Source of the DNA: Bacteroidota bacterium
GTDB taxonomy: Bacteria; Bacteroidota; Bacteroidia; Chitinophagales; LD1
Assembly: GCA_947461105.1 (NCBI GenBank)
Contig: CANHIG010000004.1
Coordinates: 1 to 39,404, forward strand
Length of the DNA: 39,404 bases
Reading direction: 5' to 3'
The notes below the pieces were generated by a model. That model saw only the letters and a program-made list of their open reading frames with translations, did no database searches and was not told the DNA's origin. Below, piece by piece: positions 9,157 to 21,928 of this stretch (positions are counted from its first letter, which is position 1; every line of letters starts with the position of its first letter). Made by a program: the position numbers and the translations under genes.

Positions 9157-10650
9157 ATGAAAAAACTATACTTACTTACACTGACCTTTTTGACCTTCGG
9201 CTCTTCTTGGGGACAAGCATTGGTAAATAATCTCGGAGCAGATGTATACATCACTCAGGGTGCTTTTGTTATTGTAAAAACAAGCTCGGTTCGCAATTTG
9301 CAGGGAAGTATAGAAAATGCAGGTCAATTTGTGATTGAAGGCGATATTCAAAACGATGCAAATTTACTTGGAGGATCAAATACGGCTACTGGTTATTACA
9401 AAGTTCAGGGTGATTGGATTAATAATGCAAATGTTACTTCCTATCTTGACACAGTACATTTATATGGAAACAACCAACTGATTACAGGTAACACACCAAC
9501 TAATTTCTACAACCTGATTCTCACTGGCTCTCCAACTGCAATAAAAACTCAGACTTTAGATGCATATGTTAATGGTGTGCTCGAGCTAAATGATGTGGAA
9601 TTAGCGACCGACCAAAGCAAAATGATTGTGGTAAATCCAAGTCAGAGTGCAATTCTAAATTCAACTACACCTGGGGCTGAGGGCTTTGTAAGCAGCGTGG
9701 GTAATGGGCGACTGGTTCGTTATACCAATTCTGCCTTAGCTTACAACTTCCCTTTGGGTACACCATCCTCAACAGGGAATCCTTTTTATTTCAGACCATT
9801 AGATATAAAACCCCAATCGGGAAATACTGATTCATGGGAGGCAATGATTGCCAAGGATCCTACAGCAGATTCCTATGATGTAAATATTTTGGACAACCAG
9901 TTGTGCAGAGTTAATCCGCTTTACTATCACAGAATAGACGGAATCAGCCCTGCTGATATGAAATTTTATTACAACAGTTCTGTTGATGGCAGGTGGACAG
10001 ACGTAGGTCATTGGGTAACTAATCAGTGGAACTATACCAGTGTCGCAACATCCAATAACAGTGGAGGTTTTAGTTCTCTTGAAATTAAAGGTTGGAACAA
10101 CTATACTCCCGACCCATTTGCTTTGGCCTCAAAGAAATTTTTGGTTGACGCAGGACCGAATACGGCCATCTATCCCGGACAAAGCGTACCTTTTAATCCA
10201 ACTATAGGTACAAATAGTGTTTCATCCATTACATGGACACCAAGCACATATCTTGATTTCGACAACATCAGAAATCCTAATTCAACTCCTGACAAAACAG
10301 TAACATACGTTGTAAATGTTACCGATGCTACAGGATGTAAAGTAAGCGATACTGTTCAAATAACAGTTAAAGCAGACGACTTGCTTATTCCCTCAGCATT
10401 CTCTCCAAACAATGACGGTATGAATGATGTGTTCAGAACACTTAGTACCAATCTTGCGAAATACAGGATGTTTGTATTTAACCGATGGGGCGAGAAAGTA
10501 TATGAAACTGAAGATCCTGCTGAAGGATGGGACGGAACATACAAAGGGATACCGCAAGACATTGGTGTTTATGTATACACTATAGATTATCAGACTTTTT
10601 CTTCTACCATTCTGAAAACAATGTCAGGAAACGTGACATTAGTGAAATAA
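9157..10650 (+). CDS. Secreted protein with T9SS type B (gliding-motility CHU_C) sorting domain
   Basis: A 497-residue secreted protein. The signal peptide is MKKLYLLTLTFLTFGSSWGQ. Residues about 21-320 form a beta-rich region of unknown type (GSIENAGQFVIEGDIQNDAN, GYYKVQGDWINNANVT) that looks like a repetitive beta-helix or adhesin stalk. A PKD/Ig-like segment follows (DAGPNTAIYPGQSV to about residue 405). The last 90 residues are the gliding-motility C-terminal domain: LIPSAFSPNNDGMNDVFR, FNRWGEKVYE and GWDGTYKG are its hallmarks. That domain directs export through the type IX secretion system and attachment to the surface, with PorU/SprF-type partners. No catalytic site is seen, so an adhesin or surface-layer role is likeliest. 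It diverges from asd over 104 bases. Confidence 0.85.
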   Translation: MKKLYLLTLTFLTFGSSWGQALVNNLGADVYITQGAFVIVKTSSVRNLQGSIENAGQFVIEGDIQNDANLLGGSNTATGYYKVQGDWINNANVTSYLDTVHLYGNNQLITGNTPTNFYNLILTGSPTAIKTQTLDAYVNGVLELNDVELATDQSKMIVVNPSQSAILNSTTPGAEGFVSSVGNGRLVRYTNSALAYNFPLGTPSSTGNPFYFRPLDIKPQSGNTDSWEAMIAKDPTADSYDVNILDNQLCRVNPLYYHRIDGISPADMKFYYNSSVDGRWTDVGHWVTNQWNYTSVATSNNSGGFSSLEIKGWNNYTPDPFALASKKFLVDAGPNTAIYPGQSVPFNPTIGTNSVSSITWTPSTYLDFDNIRNPNSTPDKTVTYVVNVTDATGCKVSDTVQITVKADDLLIPSAFSPNNDGMNDVFRTLSTNLAKYRMFVFNRWGEKVYETEDPAEGWDGTYKGIPQDIGVYVYTIDYQTFSSTILKTMSGNVTLVK

Positions 10651-12862: not shown

Positions 12863-13875
12863 AAAAAATATTTGTTACAGGAGCAACAGGATTATTAGGT
12901 TCTGTAATATGCAGGAAACTTATTAAAGATGGTCATCAAATTATAGCCATTAAAAGACCCTCAAGTAAACTTGATTTACTCGGAGATGTTGCACAGCAGA
13001 TACAATGGGTTGATGGCGATGTGAGAGATATAGAATCATTAGATCAAGCTATGAAAGATGCCGACTATGTAATTCATTGTGCAGCTATGATTTCTTTCAT
13101 TCCTCAGGATGCAGCAGCTATGATGCAAATTAATGTGGAGGGAACAGCTAACGTAATGAACAGCGCTTTGGTAAATAACATAAAGCGTGTTTTACATGTA
13201 AGCAGTGTGGCAGCTTTCGGCAGACCAAAAGGAGTTAGTGTGATTGATGAGGAACTGGATATAAAAGATTCGAAAGATAATTTCAATTACTTCCGAAGTA
13301 AATTTTTAGGAGAACGTGAAGCTCTTCGAGCACATGCAGAAGGATTAGATGTTGCCATCATAAATCCATCTACAATTTTGGGTGGCGGATATTGGGATAT
13401 GGAACCCAACAAATTATTTGCGCAAATTCATAACGGATATTATTTCTACACCAACGGCTCGAATGGATTTGTTGATGTGCGCGATGTAGCAGAGGTAGCT
13501 ATCAGGGTTTTATTCAGTGAAATATCAGGAGAAAAATTCATCGTATCATCTGAGAATCTTTGCTTTAAAGACTTGATTTGGATGATAGCTGATGAGTTTA
13601 AAGTAAAAAGACCTTTCATTCCTGCAAATAGATTTCTAGGTAAAATTGCATGGCGACTCGATACCCTGAAAGCGAAACTTACCGGACAAAGACCTTTGGT
13701 GACAAAAGAAGTAATCGAAATGGCGCTTTGTGATTACAATTACAACAATAAGAAAATAAGAAAAATACTTGGTTATGATTTCCGAAAAGTAAACGATACT
13801 GTAAAAGAAGTTTGTCTGATGTACAAAAAAAGCGTAGCCGATAAAAAGAACTTTGCAGTAATTGAAACTATCTGA
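12859..13875 (+). CDS. NAD-dependent epimerase/dehydratase (extended SDR)
   Basis: A 338-residue extended short-chain dehydrogenase/reductase. The NAD(P)-binding motif GATGLLG is at residues 7-13, the acidic loop follows strand 2, and the active site is YFRSK (Tyr and Lys of YxxxK) near residue 146, with upstream HVSSVAAFG providing the serine. The family includes 3-beta-hydroxysteroid dehydrogenase-like and dihydroflavonol-4-reductase-like enzymes; in bacteria many act on sugars or hopanoid-like substrates, so the substrate cannot be stated. The ATG overlaps the anmK stop (ATGA). Its own 3' end overlaps the convergent T9SS gene by 8 bases, leaving no room for a terminator. Confidence 0.88.
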   Translation: MKKIFVTGATGLLGSVICRKLIKDGHQIIAIKRPSSKLDLLGDVAQQIQWVDGDVRDIESLDQAMKDADYVIHCAAMISFIPQDAAAMMQINVEGTANVMNSALVNNIKRVLHVSSVAAFGRPKGVSVIDEELDIKDSKDNFNYFRSKFLGEREALRAHAEGLDVAIINPSTILGGGYWDMEPNKLFAQIHNGYYFYTNGSNGFVDVRDVAEVAIRVLFSEISGEKFIVSSENLCFKDLIWMIADEFKVKRPFIPANRFLGKIAWRLDTLKAKLTGQRPLVTKEVIEMALCDYNYNNKKIRKILGYDFRKVNDTVKEVCLMYKKSVADKKNFAVIETI

Positions 13876-16800
13876 GTAAAGTAAGATTACCCATCAGATT
13901 TTTTTTGATACCTGAGGGGCCATAAGTATAGCCCACTGTCCAAACATAGGTTTCCATAGTTTGATCTACACCTTTGTATCTTCCATTCCAGCCAAAATCA
14001 ATATCGGTAGTCTCATAAACTTTCTCACCCCATCTGTTAAATATTCTCATTTCAAATGAAGTTGGAATACCAACATATACAGGCTTGTATGTTTCATTTG
14101 CTCCATCTCCATTCGGGCTAAATGCAGTAGGCATTACCAGCTTAAAATCACAATCATCTCTAAGCGAAATCTGAACAGTATCCATGGATTCGCAACCATT
14201 ATTATCTGTCACAGTTATGATGTAAATACCGGCAGATATTGCGCTATACACACTTGTTGTTGTGCCATCCTGCCATCTGTATAGCGTATAGCTATTGCCT
14301 GCATTCAGCTCCACAACATCGCCATTGCAAATTGTCTTATCTTCTCCTATAAATGGTTTAACAGCCTTAGGAGTGTATCCTAATGTTGTGCTTTTTGAAT
14401 TTTTACATCCGTTAATATCAGTAACAGTGGCATTATATTGCCCTCCTGATAAATTGACAATATCAATGGTGGTAGCTCCAGTATTCCATTCATACAAATA
14501 TGGACCATTGCCATTGATTATATTAATAGTTGTAGTTCCATTCGCATTACCACAGGTAGCTTGAGTATTGTTGATTGTAAAATCTATAGTAGGTTGCTCT
14601 GCTACATTCACAGACTGAGATGCGGTGCATCCGTTATTGTTGTCTGTTACGATTACGATGTATGCTCCTGCTATACTTACGTCCTGAGTCGATGTGTTTG
14701 ACCCGGCACTCCAATTATAATTCACACCAGAAGTAGTTGATGTAGCTGTTATAGTTACAATTGGATTTACGCAGGTGATATCAGCCGGAGTTTGTACGCT
14801 CAAATTTGGTGGTGTATTATCAAGCGTTACCACTACCTGATTGCTTGCAGAACACCCGTTTGTATTATCCGTTACTGTGAGTGTGTATGTTCCAGGAATA
14901 CTTGCTACTGCTGTTGCATTACTTCCCAATCCATTGCTCCAACTGTAGCTTATATTTGGTGTAATACTTGAGCCATCAAGAGTTACATTGGTTATAACGC
15001 ATGTCAATACTTTGGGCTGACCAGCATCAACATCAGGAGTCGCAGGCACTGCAAGTGTGAAGAATGTATCTTTTGAACAAAGGGTTATATCATCAGTCAC
15101 AGTAACATAGTATGTGCCTGCTGTAAGATTTAAAACATCTTCAGTAGTTGCTCCACCCTGACTCCACACAAAATTAAAATTGCCCAAACCTCCTGTCACC
15201 GAAACGTCTATGCTTCCATTTGCCAAACAAGTAGGCTGCGTAATTACAGCTGAAATACTATGCGAGCAACAAGATGAAAGTCCCGGAGCGATTGTAAACC
15301 ATGCTGTATCTGAACATCCATTGGCATCTGATACATACATGATATAAGTATCAGGCGAAACTCCATTTACAGGAAAAGCAGAAAAAGGGATAGTGGCAGA
15401 TGGCGTTGAAGATGATGCATAGCTGAATGAATATGGAGCTGTTCCATAAAAAGGTACCGCATTATTAATCACACCATTTGAAGCACCAATACAATTTTCA
15501 GGAGAAGCTTGGACAGGGTTAAGAAACAAATCAATTTTTGTAATTGAGAACCAACTTGTATCTGTACAATTATTAGCATCCGAAACAGTTAGCACATAAT
15601 TCCCAATAGCTATTCCGCTCAAAGGGAATGCTGCAATATTTACAGAAGCGGAAGGATTAGAGAGGGGTGCATAGCTATATAAATATGGTGATGTGCCCCC
15701 TGTTGCATTGACATTGCTTATGGTTCCGGTTGTTTCATAGCATGCAAGTTGCGCCACTCCAATACTATTTATTGTCAAAGGATTCGGCAGTGGATTAATA
15801 GTAAACCAAAAAGTATCTCTGCAGCTATTTACATCCTGTACTCCTAAAATATATGTGCCCGGTGTTATGTTTGATAGCGGAAAAGAAGCTATAGGTGTCA
15901 CAGCTGTAGGGTTTGAAGATGGCGCATATCCGTATTGCAATGTTCCCGTTCCGCCAGTTACAGTTACTGAACTAATTATACCACCTGAAGGTGCTGTGCA
16001 TGTAGGGCTCGAAAAATTTACAGCGCTAATATCAGGAGAGTTGGGCGCTGTCAATGTAATGCTCGTATCTTTTTGACAACCATCACCTGTACTGATAGTG
16101 ACCGTGTATATTCCAACTGCAAGGTTTGAAGCAGATGCAATATTTCCTGAAGCTGCATTAGCACTCCATGTGTACGAATACGGAGATGTCCCTCCAGAAG
16201 GATTAAGTGTTATTGACCCCGTTGATCCCAAACACGAAGGCTGAACAATACTTGCATTTGTCTTGGGCAATGTATTACTTAATGCCACGGTTGTTGATGC
16301 CGAGGCAGTGCAACCGTTTCCTGGGTCTGAAGCTGTAACAGAATAAGAACCGGCAACAGATACAGGCTTGGTATTTCCTGTTCCTCCTCCGCTCCATGCA
16401 AAGGTAGCCCCTGAAGTACTTGATGTGGCAGTAAGCGTAATATTCGGACTGGCACATGTAAGCGCGGCCGGTGGATTGATGCTCACATTTGGTAGTGTGA
16501 TATTTTTCGGAACAAACACTGATGTACTTGCTTTGCATCCATTAGACGGATCAGTAGCTGTGATAGTATAGTTAGCAGAAGTTGATACTGATTTTGTTGC
16601 GCCAGTGCCTCCACCGCTCCACGCAAAAGTTGCGCCTGATGTGGTAGACGAAGCGGTAAGTGTAACTGGCGTATTGATGCAGGTGAGCGTGGCCGGTGGA
16701 GCGATACTTACGTTGGGGGTAACTGTATTTTGAGAGACGGTAGCAGAAGCAGTTGCACTGCAACCTGCAGAAGAAGCTGTAACCGTATAGGTACCCGCAG

Positions 16801-17908
16801 CAGAAACAGATTTTGTAGCGCCTGTTCCTCCTCCGCTCCAAGTATAGGTCACCCCTGATGTGCTGGAAGAAGCTGTAAGAACAACACTGGAACTTGAACA
16901 AGTGAGTACCGAAGGTGTTGCAATAGAAACATTAGGTGGCGTTCCACTTGGAGTTAATGTATAAGTTGCCGTTCTGCTACATCCTCCGGGATTTACAGTG
17001 AGTGTATAAGTTCCTGCACCCGTAACTGTTGTACTTGACGATGAAGGAGAAGTAATTGATGTTCCCGCTGTTCCTGACCATGCATATGTTGGTGAACTTG
17101 CATTTGTTACAGCCGTAAGTGTTGTTGTATTGGAACCACAGGCCAATGGAGCTGCAGTGATAGAGGCTGTAGGAGCCGCTGATGCAACAATATTTGTAAT
17201 GATTATATACTGCGAAGATGGGTTTGAACTATATGTGGCTCCCCCATTTTTATAAGTAATAGTTATTGTTTTTATCTGAGAGCCACCTATTGAAACAGCA
17301 TGGGAACCACAAGTGCAACCTGTGCCAACTGCAGTGATAACTTTTGCATTACCTAAGGTTGCAACAGTATTTGTACCACAACTTCCAATCGTAATATTTG
17401 CCGATGGAATTGCTGTTGCTGTAGCGTCAGTAGCTGAAATTTCTACCACATCAGTAAAGTAAGAACTAGATCCGAAAAGCGCTTGATTAATATCCCAAAT
17501 ACTGAAAGTAACAGGAGCACAAACAGGATTAGTAAAAGTTAAAATTACTTGCTCATATCTTGACAAATTATTGTCTGGATAATTTGCCGCAAGAACTAAT
17601 CCACTTTGAGCTGCGCTATTTGAGCAGTAGCAAGAATTTGTAGAATAGTCCGCTATATACATTGTCACCTCATTGTAGTAAAAAGGAACAGATGGCAATG
17701 ATGTATTTGTTCCGAAACAATCAGTACTTCCTAGTGTTTGAGCTCTGCTATTTGCAAACTCTGTATACGCTGCGGTCATTGTATTACCTCCTGATGTGGT
17801 AGAGAAAGATGTACTTCCAGCTGACCATGATGCAAAACTAAATGTTTGAGCTATTGATGAGGAAACCAAAAGTAATAACGAAGCAAAAATTATCGAGCGC
17901 TTTTTCAT
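13868..17908 (-). CDS. Giant T9SS type B secreted protein with Ig-like and SprB-like repeats
   Basis: A 1346-residue surface protein. The signal peptide is MKKRSIIFASLLLLVSSSIAQ. Residues about 22-245 are a Cys- and Ser-rich domain I do not recognise. An Ig-like repeat region begins near residue 250; from about 320 to 548 come three close repeats of the form PNVSIxxPxxLTC ... WSGGGTGATK ... AGxYTVTA ... GCxA. Next are an SprB-like unit, three units of about 83 residues containing YAPxSNPxA and FPLSxI (about 623-880), another SprB-like unit (ITQPTCLANGSIDV), two more Ig-like units and a further SprB-like unit. The C-terminus is the CHU_C sorting domain (PTAFSPNGDG, FNRWGEKVYE, GWNGRYKG). It should be exported by the type IX system as an adhesin or gliding-related filament protein. 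No enzyme motif is seen. A hairpin terminator lies upstream, between it and its paralogue. Confidence 0.88.
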   Translation of the reverse strand: MKKRSIIFASLLLLVSSSIAQTFSFASWSAGSTSFSTTSGGNTMTAAYTEFANSRAQTLGSTDCFGTNTSLPSVPFYYNEVTMYIADYSTNSCYCSNSAAQSGLVLAANYPDNNLSRYEQVILTFTNPVCAPVTFSIWDINQALFGSSSYFTDVVEISATDATATAIPSANITIGSCGTNTVATLGNAKVITAVGTGCTCGSHAVSIGGSQIKTITITYKNGGATYSSNPSSQYIIITNIVASAAPTASITAAPLACGSNTTTLTAVTNASSPTYAWSGTAGTSITSPSSSSTTVTGAGTYTLTVNPGGCSRTATYTLTPSGTPPNVSIATPSVLTCSSSSVVLTASSSTSGVTYTWSGGGTGATKSVSAAGTYTVTASSAGCSATASATVSQNTVTPNVSIAPPATLTCINTPVTLTASSTTSGATFAWSGGGTGATKSVSTSANYTITATDPSNGCKASTSVFVPKNITLPNVSINPPAALTCASPNITLTATSSTSGATFAWSGGGTGNTKPVSVAGSYSVTASDPGNGCTASASTTVALSNTLPKTNASIVQPSCLGSTGSITLNPSGGTSPYSYTWSANAASGNIASASNLAVGIYTVTISTGDGCQKDTSITLTAPNSPDISAVNFSSPTCTAPSGGIISSVTVTGGTGTLQYGYAPSSNPTAVTPIASFPLSNITPGTYILGVQDVNSCRDTFWFTINPLPNPLTINSIGVAQLACYETTGTISNVNATGGTSPYLYSYAPLSNPSASVNIAAFPLSGIAIGNYVLTVSDANNCTDTSWFSITKIDLFLNPVQASPENCIGASNGVINNAVPFYGTAPYSFSYASSSTPSATIPFSAFPVNGVSPDTYIMYVSDANGCSDTAWFTIAPGLSSCCSHSISAVITQPTCLANGSIDVSVTGGLGNFNFVWSQGGATTEDVLNLTAGTYYVTVTDDITLCSKDTFFTLAVPATPDVDAGQPKVLTCVITNVTLDGSSITPNISYSWSNGLGSNATAVASIPGTYTLTVTDNTNGCSASNQVVVTLDNTPPNLSVQTPADITCVNPIVTITATSTTSGVNYNWSAGSNTSTQDVSIAGAYIVIVTDNNNGCTASQSVNVAEQPTIDFTINNTQATCGNANGTTTINIINGNGPYLYEWNTGATTIDIVNLSGGQYNATVTDINGCKNSKSTTLGYTPKAVKPFIGEDKTICNGDVVELNAGNSYTLYRWQDGTTTSVYSAISAGIYIITVTDNNGCESMDTVQISLRDDCDFKLVMPTAFSPNGDGANETYKPVYVGIPTSFEMRIFNRWGEKVYETTDIDFGWNGRYKGVDQTMETYVWTVGYTYGPSGIKKNLMGNLTLLR

Positions 17909-17991
17909 GAATGGAACTTGATTATATATTGGATTTTAAAGTTAAATAAATCTCACTATTACACTTCATAATCTCCACTTTGATTAAAAGA

Positions 17992-18019
17992 AAATGGAAG
18001 CGAATTATCACTTCCATTT
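17992..18019 (-). terminator. Intrinsic terminator between the two giant T9SS genes
   Basis: A perfect 9-base stem AAATGGAAG / CTTCCATTT with a 10-base loop. Read on the minus strand it is followed by TTTTCTTTT, giving the U-rich tail. It lies 29 bases after the stop of the 18049-21450 gene and indicates that the two large genes are transcribed separately. Confidence 0.65.
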
Positions 18020-18048
18020 ATCCCAAAATTTATAGTAACAACATAATC

Positions 18049-21000
18049 TTATCTCAACAAAGACATGTTGCCTATTAAGCTCTTTTTCGTTCCGGTTCCA
18101 TAAGTATATGTAGTAGTCCAAGAGTAGGTTTCCATTGGTGCATCAGCACCTTTGTATTTGCCATCCCACCCAGTGTTCACATCCTTGGTTTCAAATACCT
18201 TCTCTCCCCATCTGTTGAATACTCTCAACTCAAAGGATGTAGGAGTTCCGGTATATACGGCTTTGAATAAATCATTTTTCCCATCTCCATTCGGGCTGAA
18301 TGCCGTAGGCACTGCAATTTCAAAACTGCAATCATCTCTGATTTTCAGCTCCATCGTATCACTTGCCTTGCAGCCATTGTTGTCTGTGATGATTACGGTG
18401 TATAGTCCTGCATTTGTAGCATTATAGGTATTATCTGTTGTGCCATCCTGCCATCTATAAGTTGCATAGCCGTTTCCAGCGTTTAATACCACTACCTCTC
18501 CTTCACATATTGCTTTGTCTTCCCCAATATCAGGTTTTGTTGCTTGTGGTGTTTGACTCACAGTGGCAGTGCTAACATCTTTACATCCATTTACATCCGT
18601 TACAGTGGCAATGTATTGTCCTCCTGATATATTGCTGATGCTTATTGTGGCATCTCCTGTATTCCAATTATAACTGTAAGGACCACTTCCACTGGCGATA
18701 TTGATAGTTGCTGTTCCATTGCTGTTACCGCAGGTAGCTGGTATTGTTGCTATAGAATAAACAGTTGATTGCTGCGCAGATACATTTACAGTTTGTTCAG
18801 CTGTACATCCGTTGTTATTATCTGTTATTGTCAAAGAATATGGTCCAGCCAAAGTAACATCTTGGGTAGAAGTTGTGGCTCCTGCACTCCAGTTGAAACT
18901 AACACCAGAGGTGGTTGATGATGCCGAAAGAGTAACAACAGGATGAGCACAGTCAAGATCGATAGGGGTTTGTATGCTGAGATTTGGCGTTGCTCTGTCC
19001 ACTGTTATTGTTACAGATGCTTGAGATGCACAGCCATTTGAAATATTTGTAGTAGTCACTGTGTATATTGTAGTTGATTGCGGACTTGCTGTTGGGTCTG
19101 ATATGTTAGACTGTGATAAGCCCGTGCTTGGACTCCAAGTATAAGAGTAACCGCTTGTCGAGGCTGTACCAATTTGGACAGTACCTGATGTGTTTAGCAA
19201 ACACGTGATACTCGCATCTTGTCCAGCAATTGATACAGGAGCATTAGCATCCAATGAAACATCAACTTGGTCACTCGCAGAACAACCGTTCGAATTTCCA
19301 GTAACAACTAAAGTATAGGTATTTGCTGCAGTTGCAGTTGCAACTGGATTTGTTCCTAAACCATTGCTCCATGCAAAACTTACATTTGGAGTTGTACTTG
19401 CACCATCTAATGTTACAGAAGTAGTACCACAGAGGATTACTTTATCCTGACCTGCATACACATTAGGTTTTATGGTATCCACAGTAATCACTACCGCATC
19501 ACTCGATGTACATCCATTAGTTGGATTTGTAGTAGTGACTGAGTATGTTGTAGTAATCGCAGGAGCAGCAAAAGGATTAGAGGTATTAGTTGGAGTAAGC
19601 CCTGTTGTCGGACTCCATGTATAGATGTAACCCGATGTATTTGATGTACCTAATGTAACTATGTGAGAAGGATTTTGCAAACAAGTAATACTTGTATCTC
19701 TTCCTGCATCAGATACTGGCTGTGTTCTGTCAACTGTAATTAGAACAGTATCGTTGGACACACATCCATTTCCGCCATCTACAGTCAAAACATAAGTGGT
19801 GGTTGCAACAGGATTAGCAGTTGGATTTGAGGAGTTCGATGGAGTGAGACCTGTAGCAGGTGACCATGTGTAAGTAAATCCCGGAAATGAAGACGAGCCG
19901 ATTGATACTCCTGTTGGATTATTTACACATGAAATTGATTGATCCGGTCCGGCAATTGCAGAGACACAACAATAACTCTTTGTGGTGGGGAAAGTACAGA
20001 TAGCGGGAGTAAAGACCACATTAGTAAACACAAAATTAGTATTGCTGATATTTATTGCACCAAGTGTCCATTGTCCTCTTCCACCAGGAGTACCGGGAAC
20101 ATAAGTTGTATTTGTCGTTGGTGAACCCGAACAAGCATTTGTAGGATATCCATTGAAAGCATTTGGATATACATAAACTTCAATTATTGAATTGCTGGTG
20201 AAGTTAACTCCTTTTGATGCAATCAAAGCAAGAGTAACATTGATGGTAGGAGCCGCTGTTGCTGCAAACATGGAATCAAATACTGCAACACCATCTACAT
20301 AAATAGTCACCCAAAAATCTGCTGCCACTTGAGTACAGAACAACCCTCCGAAAGGTCTTTGCGGATAGGAATAACCTGATATTGAAACTTGAAATGAACC
20401 AGTTGTTGCAGCACCTCCCACACCTGCCGGACCAATAGTCACGTAAGCAGAATTATTTGTACCCCCAAATGGACTGTTCTTTGGTGTTGCATTACTTTTT
20501 GTAGCTGTCTGAGTAAATGTAGCCTGAGAGGAAGAGCCTCCTGTAGAGCAGCAATTAGGCCCTGCAGGAATACCATTATACGTGATAGAAAAATTTTGCG
20601 TTCCGGTAACATCATGAGTGTAAGACATGGTGTCGGGATTTGGAGAAATTGTAAATACAGAACCAAACGAGGCTGCTACACAGTCATTCTTTGGCACCAC
20701 ACTCCATTTACAACTATCAGTCCGCCATGTGATATCAACGAAATCGGTATATGCAGTTGGCACTCTCGGATACACGGTTACATTTACAGAACCTGATGAA
20801 AGAATGGTGTTGCCGGATAAACATTTTACACTCCATGTAATTGTTTCTGTTCGTGAAGTGCAGTAATTGCTATTTGAAAAAGTATAGTTCTTAGAAACAT
20901 CCGAACAAGACTTAAACGTATCTATAGTAGTTCCCGAAGATGTGGTAATTGTAGCCTCAACCGGAGGAACATTTATAGGTGCTGAAAACCCTTGATTAGT

Positions 21001-21450
21001 TTGAGCTCCTGTGAAATTTGTACTATTAAAGGGTGGAACAATCACATTTCCTGCATAATCCAAAACTTGCAGTGAACCACTTCCTGTAAAACCATTACCA
21101 ACTGAATCATAAATGTACAACATAAATGATGTGCCACTTGCTCTGTTTAAAGGACCAACACTTACGTTAATTGCATTATTGTTACCATAGCCACTTCCTT
21201 TGGCCACAGTATCTCCGGTTCCAGGATTTACAACTATCCAGCTAATTTGGGCACCTTGGCTTCCCGAGCTTCCCGACACTGTAAAAAAGATATTTGAGGG
21301 ACATGAGGTATTCGCTATTTTAAAATTGTAAATCTGATTACCACAAGCACTTGATGCAGTTGGCGTTGCTGCATACACAGGGCATTGGGCAGTTAATTTA
21401 CCCGCAAAACCTAATAAGATTAAAGAAAAAAGTAGAGCTGTCTTTTTCAT
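18049..21450 (-). CDS. Large T9SS type B secreted protein with PKD/Ig-like repeats (paralogue)
   Basis: A 1133-residue surface protein. The signal peptide is MKKTALLFSLILLGFAGKLTAQ. Residues about 22-490 are unrelated to the neighbouring paralogue and unrecognised; they are Cys-containing, with a CCSTGG segment and a beta-sandwich-like stretch (FWVTIYVDGVAVFDSMF). From about 495 to 900 come five or six Ig/PKD-like repeats of the form AGxDxSITC ... YTWSPxTGLTPxNxSNP ... TTTYxVTT ... NGCxS. An SprB-like unit (ATCGNSNGTATINIASG) and the CHU_C domain follow (PTAFSPNGDG, FNRWGEKVFE, GWDGKYKG). The last 330 or so residues match the 13868-17908 protein closely, so the two share a duplicated C-terminal module. 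Surface display by type IX secretion is expected; ligand unknown. A small secreted protein is encoded 52 bases upstream. Confidence 0.88.
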   Translation of the reverse strand: MKKTALLFSLILLGFAGKLTAQCPVYAATPTASSACGNQIYNFKIANTSCPSNIFFTVSGSSGSQGAQISWIVVNPGTGDTVAKGSGYGNNNAINVSVGPLNRASGTSFMLYIYDSVGNGFTGSGSLQVLDYAGNVIVPPFNSTNFTGAQTNQGFSAPINVPPVEATITTSSGTTIDTFKSCSDVSKNYTFSNSNYCTSRTETITWSVKCLSGNTILSSGSVNVTVYPRVPTAYTDFVDITWRTDSCKWSVVPKNDCVAASFGSVFTISPNPDTMSYTHDVTGTQNFSITYNGIPAGPNCCSTGGSSSQATFTQTATKSNATPKNSPFGGTNNSAYVTIGPAGVGGAATTGSFQVSISGYSYPQRPFGGLFCTQVAADFWVTIYVDGVAVFDSMFAATAAPTINVTLALIASKGVNFTSNSIIEVYVYPNAFNGYPTNACSGSPTTNTTYVPGTPGGRGQWTLGAINISNTNFVFTNVVFTPAICTFPTTKSYCCVSAIAGPDQSISCVNNPTGVSIGSSSFPGFTYTWSPATGLTPSNSSNPTANPVATTTYVLTVDGGNGCVSNDTVLITVDRTQPVSDAGRDTSITCLQNPSHIVTLGTSNTSGYIYTWSPTTGLTPTNTSNPFAAPAITTTYSVTTTNPTNGCTSSDAVVITVDTIKPNVYAGQDKVILCGTTSVTLDGASTTPNVSFAWSNGLGTNPVATATAANTYTLVVTGNSNGCSASDQVDVSLDANAPVSIAGQDASITCLLNTSGTVQIGTASTSGYSYTWSPSTGLSQSNISDPTASPQSTTIYTVTTTNISNGCASQASVTITVDRATPNLSIQTPIDLDCAHPVVTLSASSTTSGVSFNWSAGATTSTQDVTLAGPYSLTITDNNNGCTAEQTVNVSAQQSTVYSIATIPATCGNSNGTATINIASGSGPYSYNWNTGDATISISNISGGQYIATVTDVNGCKDVSTATVSQTPQATKPDIGEDKAICEGEVVVLNAGNGYATYRWQDGTTDNTYNATNAGLYTVIITDNNGCKASDTMELKIRDDCSFEIAVPTAFSPNGDGKNDLFKAVYTGTPTSFELRVFNRWGEKVFETKDVNTGWDGKYKGADAPMETYSWTTTYTYGTGTKKSLIGNMSLLR

Positions 21451-21502: not shown

Positions 21503-21928
21503 CTATTTTACTAAACCCTTTCTCACTGCATCCGTCTGCATTTTTATGCCTTCTGCATTCTTAATACCTTTTCGCTTCAGATACTCGACTTTACTAGTAG
21601 CAGTATTTGTCCCGAAATCATCAATCCTCAATTTCGCTAATTGACTAAGTACAATATGCTTATCTTTTTCACTGAGCATATTATAGCTCACTGCTTCAAT
21701 AAGAAGACAAATTTCTTTGTATTGTACTGTCAATATTTTTGATAATTGAAGACTGGCATTTTGATATACCAAGGCATCTTCCTTATGATTGCTGCAAATC
21801 ACTAAATCCTCCTTCCCTATTGTTTCCTGCATTCTCTTCAAAGAGGATTCACTTGACTGCGAAAATGAAACTTTCTCAATAACAGATAAAAAAAACAGCA
21901 CAAAAGTGATTTTCTGAAATGCTTTCAT
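21503..21928 (-). CDS. Small secreted protein of unknown function
   Basis: A 141-residue protein with a signal peptide (MKAFQKITFVLFFLSVIEKV, cleavage near SFSQ). The mature part is about 118 residues, mostly helical and charged, with two cysteines (VICSNHKED and KEICLLIEA) that could pair. I do not recognise a family. It lacks a T9SS C-terminal domain and a lipobox, so it should be periplasmic or released. It sits 52 bases upstream of the 1133-residue T9SS gene on the same strand with no terminator between them, and a good promoter precedes it, so the two probably form one transcript and may act together. Confidence 0.65.
   Translation of the reverse strand: MKAFQKITFVLFFLSVIEKVSFSQSSESSLKRMQETIGKEDLVICSNHKEDALVYQNASLQLSKILTVQYKEICLLIEAVSYNMLSEKDKHIVLSQLAKLRIDDFGTNTATSKVEYLKRKGIKNAEGIKMQTDAVRKGLVK

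Follow-up and report, generated by a model that had tools for sequence, protein, structure and literature searches.

The window analysed here, the 39,404-nt contig C4 of the draft genome of an uncultured Bacteroidota bacterium (G000; 87.65% complete, 197 contigs), carries two giant genes, A and B, whose products end in the same module and begin with unrelated tips. The question raised by this locus is which part of such proteins has been exchanged. The preliminary description of the window favored the tip, proposing that surface proteins diversified by swapping an exposed domain on a common export and stalk module. When a sister species is compared, the tips seem to have stayed in place, whereas the tails, the predicted export address labels, seem to have been replaced.

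Two tandem genes with a common C-terminal module

A and B were confirmed as ORFs at the positions first described, arranged head to tail with both on the minus strand and a gap of 140 bp. By eye, the flanking genes are a ribosomal-protein cluster (rplQ, rpoA and others) on one side and an epimerase-like gene on the other. A 141-aa ORF (21503-21928, minus strand), with a signal-peptide-like start and no Pfam family over the cut-off, lies between B and rplQ. The parts of the two genes are as follows.

13868..17908 (-): gene A, ORF of 1346 aa; predicted T9SS type B substrate; mosaic with three origins by window painting
17174..17848 (-): A tip, residues ~21-245; predicted jelly-roll beta sandwich; orthologue 73% identical in G001, relatives 33-38% identical in G008 and G023
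16274..17173 (-): A stalk 1, Ig-like repeats, residues ~246-545; the G001 orthologue A' is still the top match in the painting
15029..16273 (-): A stalk 2, SprB-repeat cassette, residues ~546-960; top matches mostly C' (G001) and G002_C, with A' far lower throughout
14810..15028 (-): A Ig-like unit, residues ~961-1033; nearest to C and B of the same genome
13868..14809 (-): A shared C-terminal module (x-module), last 313 aa; Ig-like, SprB-like, pre-tail Ig-like and CHU_C
13868..14134 (-): A CHU_C / type B sorting tail, from family profiles and the tail tree
18049..21450 (-): gene B, ORF of 1133 aa; predicted T9SS type B substrate; tip without a match in G001
19966..21387 (-): B tip, residues ~22-495; a single good relative, 41% identical, from another family within the order; low-confidence all-beta model
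18988..19965 (-): B Ig-like array, residues ~496-821; matches C (65%) from ~554 onward
18049..18987 (-): B shared C-terminal x-module, last 312 aa; 82% identical to C and 62% to A
18049..18315 (-): B CHU_C / type B sorting tail, from family profiles and the tail tree

Both ORFs begin with MKK and a hydrophobic run that resembles a signal peptide. At the opposite end, both exceed the cut-offs for CHU_C (27; A 45.9 bits, B 58.2 bits) and for TIGR04131 (35; A 47.3 bits, B 54.6 bits), with the latter match reaching the last residue, and these profiles predict that A and B are T9SS type B CTD substrates. SprB repeats (PF13573, cut-off 28) score 59.6 bits for A, in three stretches, and 27.2 bits for B as a whole protein, just under the cut-off, in a single stretch.

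The common C-terminal module seen in the preliminary description holds up: A and B are ~61-62% identical over their last 312-313 aa, up to and including the CHU_C/T9SS type B end, and BLASTP aligns residues 909-1345 of A with 688-1132 of B (numbering without the first Met) at 53% identity over 446 columns (E 1e-133). That the tips are unrelated was likewise borne out by profile comparison (hhalign probability 0.3%), and neither tip has a Pfam hit over the cut-off. The identical runs of DNA that had been reported near the CHU_C start fared less well. A run of 17 nt is indeed found there, but the longest run is only 21 nt, falls outside CHU_C (it encodes RWQDGTT, ~48 codons before the domain) and is marginal, a length of 21 nt being reached in 46 of 1000 random synonymous recodings of the pair. 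Codon agreement at shared residues is what chance would give (91 of 193 identical, 86.9 ± 6.6 expected). Synonymous divergence along the module, a check that the description had itself called for, gave a pS of 0.74, near saturation, with 40-codon windows ranging from 0.53 to 0.94. Thus, nothing indicates recent exchange of DNA between A and B, and, with synonymous sites near saturation and codon agreement at chance, recent conversion between the two genes was rejected.

A third protein and the sister genome

A search of the same genome with B recovered a third protein, C (contig C29, 1616 aa), whose module is 81-82% identical to that of B and whose tip is of a third kind, unrelated to the A and B tips by profile comparison. 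Weaker relatives of the module are encoded on contigs C43 and C35. At residues shared by B and C, 156 of 257 codons are identical, compared with 111 ± 7.6 expected, a level that none of 1000 recodings reached. The tails of A, C and the C35 protein differ from each other by about 39-45%.

In G001, the sole genome labelled as the same genus in our searches, A and C have tip orthologues at 70-75% identity, with tails just 38-41% identical. For tip and tail, respectively, the values are 73% and 38% for A, 73% and 41% for C (75% for the C tip in a separate search), and 67% and 37% for C35. The two G001 proteins, A' (1309 aa) and C' (2088 aa), stand in tandem. No second copy of the A tip or the C tip was detected in G001 or in the incomplete G000. 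Nothing in G001 matches the B tip; across 119 genomes, six others do, one of them well (G079, from another family, 41%) and the rest weakly, at E values of 8e-8 or worse.

The possibility that A and A' occupy the same chromosomal site was considered and rejected, as the ~6.7 kb next to rplQ on that side of G001 contain no giant gene and the first one beyond (C59:131872-136317) encodes a different CHU_C protein. Given that A and A' stand at different sites, gene movement has happened as well.

Tip and tail were compared across 32 CHU_C proteins of G000 and 40 of G001, with the 21 and 36 that have complete 5´ ends used for tips; six CHU_C matches below the cut-off and two contig-end fragments were left out. 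Of the 17 pairs that are reciprocal best by tip, ten kept their tails. Where tips are at least 60% identical (ten pairs), mutually best tails were kept in seven, at 48-84% identity, and not in three, which are A, C and C35. The G000 members of all three mismatched pairs bear tails of B's set. The remaining four of the seven pairs with non-kept tails have tips only 36-46% alike and may not be orthologues. A within-window control is provided by a further protein with a type B tail (9157-10650, plus strand, 497 aa), which kept its tail with its G001 orthologue (tip 60%, tail 53%).

A second genus pair, G002 and G005, whose members are closer to each other, keeps reciprocal best tails in 23 of 23 pairs. 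This comparison used 36 of 41 and 32 of 42 proteins. Excluded were one protein below the cut-off, five short fragments, two whose frame length pointed to a truncated 5´ end, a counterpart pair whose frames are very long (7039 and 3867 aa) and, of what remained, the five weakest, among which one is beside a shuttle gene and one is 2 kb from a shuttle gene.

G001 also has two tandem CHU_C genes, C17:112155-113144 and C17:113364-114350 (L153 and L164), with a nearly identical stretch of at least 230 nt that covers the upstream region, the signal-peptide-like start and the first residues beyond it. Protein identity in later windows is 17-60%, a pattern of local homogenisation at the 5´ end.

Window painting of A and C

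Painting A with its top matches in 80-aa windows shows a mosaic of three parts. Residues 1 to ~540 are like A', residues ~540-980 are mostly like C' and its G002 orthologue, and the rest is like C and B of the same genome. Within ~540-980, A' scores 43-118 versus 155-318 for C', and one window is nearer to another G001 protein. This stalk cassette was seen in orthologues of C and not in A', the orthologue of A itself. C follows C', G002_C or G008_C to ~1040 of its 1616 residues and is then nearest mostly to B, with A nearest in one stretch. In the middle of C (~680-880), the top match is the orthologue from G002 or G008, yet C' itself scores below other proteins, indicating that both lineages changed.

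The contrast is sharpest at the C-terminus. In the last 300 aa, the G001 orthologue wins 0 of 6 windows for A, 0 of 7 for C and 2 of 6 for C35, all lost windows going to B or C, and B outscores the orthologue in 13 of 13 windows of A and C together. In the ten pairs with kept tails, the orthologue wins 6/6, 6/7 or 7/7 tail windows. It wins none in the four pairs with tips 36-46% alike, which again may not be orthologous. Over whole proteins, it wins 13 of 33 windows for A, 21 of 40 for C and 19 of 23 for C35. Eight of the 23 G002/G005 pairs were painted as controls, and the orthologue wins every tail window. Paralogues outscoring orthologues in one segment only, the pattern taken as the sign of concerted evolution or inter-gene conversion, was found for A, C and C35, with tree tests that are borderline for A and C35.

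Tail phylogeny and timing

The tail tree has 77 rows (five type A or other-tail proteins, one duplicate and one fragment were left out), and a second tree, with four more rows omitted, has 73. Although bootstraps are not fully settled, A, B, C, C35 and C43 come together (99/89 for 100 aa, 97/84 for 190 aa), and A' comes with the outgroup G008_A (98/85 and 100/88), which makes the tail of A' the likelier ancestral one. AU tests reject the pairing of the C and C' tails (4e-5 and 2e-49). They are borderline for A with A' (p 0.052 for 100 aa, 0.028 for 190 aa) and for the C35 pair (0.066 and 0.070), give 0.064 and 0.103 for A, A' and G008_A together, and do not reject a grouping of A with all seven rows of the A' clade (0.44, 100 residues). 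The tails of C, C', G002_C, G008_C and L219_C are only 37-47% alike. In the tail tree, G001 has a spread clade of its own (C3:53933-60199, C65, C34, C36, C59:148521 and C41:121446, plus one G000 member, C173) that mirrors the set of x-module tails in G000.

Synonymous differences allow some ordering of events. Values of pS are 0.77-0.83 for the A-A' tips, the C-C' tips and three control genes taken whole, and 0.74 for residues 410-640 of C-C'. The B-C tails, at 0.59, are below all six of these orthologous stretches between species (0.74-0.83); thus, if synonymous rates are alike, the B-C tail exchange came after the two species had separated. The module of A has a pS of 0.74 to B and 0.68 to C and, being near saturation against B, gives no date for the A exchange. 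No recent near-identical DNA tract was found between paralogues, A-B being near saturation and B-C at 0.59.

Tip families across genomes

The A-tip family has type B tails in A' and G008 and a type A tail in G023, where the tip domain belongs to a 759-aa protein (L070:3376-5655) with the type A sorting tail TIGR04183 (54.8 bits). The C-tip family has type B tails in L219 and others, a type A tail in L218, and a member in L228 without an NCBIfam tail hit. The presence of both families on both tail types implies that tips and export signals have been loosely joined over long times. A C-tip protein is also found in L227 (Glaciecola amylolytica CP034120.1, 3352236-3373369), with a tip 88% identical to that of a Flavobacteriales MAG protein. 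As this record is named for the gammaproteobacterium Glaciecola, it could be mislabelled or mixed, or could represent a striking transfer.

The A tip, modelled from a four-sequence alignment, is predicted to be a jelly roll (pLDDT 70.5), for which Foldseek returned nothing at E <= 0.001. Reading a function from this fold was rejected, since the best VIA-align Z of 9.4 is to proteins unlike each other (Elapor1, carbohydrate-binding modules, a Kgp adhesin domain) and the arrangement is a common one. The B tip, modelled from two sequences, is predicted to be all-beta (pLDDT 48.4). Sequence profiles of the A and B tips against the PDB gave one hit each (E 0.93 and 0.49).

Probable exchange of stalks and tails under stable tips

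We think it probable that stalks and sorting tails have been exchanged among paralogues under stable tips, with the exchange perhaps re-addressing adhesins, given that type B tails choose the PorP/SprF shuttle in Flavobacterium johnsoniae. In this model, A and B would be giant cell-surface adhesins exported by the T9SS, built from a start resembling a signal peptide, a tip particular to each, a stalk of Ig/SprB-like units and a type B (CHU_C) sorting tail. They would form a paralogous set with C and the proteins of contigs C35 and C43, and recombination or gene conversion would have traded stalks and tails between these genes at crossovers within the Ig/SprB repeats. Tips would then be the stable, vertically inherited part and the stalk cassettes and tail the mobile part, and the exchange itself would have been intragenomic recombination through the repeats.

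Modular recombination of surface proteins, as proposed in the preliminary description, is supported; the direction proposed there is not supported for A and C. Duplication of a common stalk-tail gene, the copies of which were given different tips, would explain three unrelated tips on one module within one genome. For A and C this is largely refuted, as the first ~540 residues of A and 1040 of the 1616 residues of C stay with their orthologues and it is the later part that departs; in addition, the C tip is old, being found in proteins of several genera. The B tip, with no match in G001 and its one good relative in another family, may have been acquired onto the x-module, so tip swapping could apply to B. 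As an account of the whole set, we regard it as unlikely. Hidden paralogy seems more improbable still. Ancestral duplicates of the A-tip and C-tip genes could have carried both tail types, different copies then being lost in each species, and the A-B tails, which are about as diverged as orthologues, and the borderline AU tests for A fit such a history. However, it requires parallel losses for three genes, no second tip copy was detected in G001 or in the incomplete G000, and the B-C tail match, at least, is younger than the split (pS 0.59 versus 0.74-0.83).

Two further explanations were considered. Ig repeats could have led the assembler to fuse the tip of one gene to the tail of another; G000 is a fragmented draft of 197 contigs, and PMC5266723 describes repeat-rich T9SS adhesin genes as breaking assemblies. 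At the second junction of A (14608-15388), however, the nearest other DNA in the assembled part of the genome (87.65% complete) shows 71% identity across 407 bp, with perfect matches no longer than 19 nt among those listed. The same kind of error would also have had to strike three genes, each on its own contig, and their tails (A, C and C35) nevertheless differ by ~39-45%; we consider a chimaera very unlikely. It is hardly credible, finally, that fast-diverging CHU_C tails merely came to look alike within one genome because selection fits them to a common export machinery. In favor of this are the shortness of the tails and the borderline outcome of several AU tests, but the likeness spans 312 aa that include Ig and SprB units, B and C agree in synonymous codons above chance (156/257 versus 111 ± 7.6; 0/1000), and tails stay with tips in 10 of 17 pairs and in 23 of 23 pairs of the second genus pair.

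Shuttles and possible re-addressing

According to PMC12618676, type B tails in F. johnsoniae decide the PorP/SprF shuttle and the destination: some send the adhesin to the gliding track, another fixes it on the surface, and one shuttle is common to three orphan substrates. PMC9143113 reports PorP-like proteins that are bound by type B proteins. The proteins described here resemble the SprB-type adhesins and type B substrates of F. johnsoniae in being adhesin candidates that end in a type B (CHU_C/TIGR04131) tail, in having PorP/SprF-like genes beside some and not others, and, for A, in carrying SprB repeats. The F. johnsoniae tail swaps were engineered, whereas natural exchange under orthologous tips is deduced here from sequence comparison.

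The 13 PorP/SprF matches in G000 all lie on contigs other than those that carry A, B and C. By analogy with F. johnsoniae, A, B and C may share an orphan shuttle, in which case tail replacement would have re-addressed A and C. The exchange could either direct conserved adhesins to a different PorP/SprF shuttle, one common to the five proteins, or keep shuttle-less adhesins on one shared address. A more general rule is conceivable but doubtful: type B tails would be exchangeable address labels, with shuttle-less adhesins trading tails inside a genome and converging on one shuttle per lineage, and shuttle-linked adhesins keeping theirs. With linkage defined as a shuttle gene within 1 kb, tails were kept in 6 of 6 linked versus 4 of 11 unlinked G000/G001 pairs (Fisher two-sided p 0.035), and in 4 of 4 versus 3 of 6 when tips are at least 60% alike. 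In G002/G005, no exchange is seen in linked (6/6) or unlinked (17/17) pairs, and the pooled p is 0.081. The contrast is suggestive, being nominally significant in one pair and not replicated in the second, which is without events.

Long RTX/Ig-like adhesins have a ligand-binding tip, a repeat stalk and a C-terminal secretion signal, and their tip is the variable part; here, in contrast, the tip is conserved between species and the stalk and tail vary. The gingipain and HagA proteins carry type A tails. These Porphyromonas gingivalis proteins, as described in PMC5266723, are T9SS substrates with adhesin modules common to several genes and rearranged domains, as here, but their repeats are identical between genes and vary between strains, whereas the modules of the present set are 61-82% alike, belong to type B proteins and were compared between species. 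Sharing and rearrangement of adhesin modules are thus known from the gingipain/HagA genes; no description of natural exchange of type B tails was found in the titles and abstract openings among the matches listed in the open-access literature.

For this family, our data carry the warning that the C-terminal domain is unsafe for naming orthologues. If tails are swapped in nature under conserved tips, adhesins could relocate on the cell without a change in what they bind. In that case, the shuttle of a type B protein that has no known partner could be predicted from a phylogeny of the tails.
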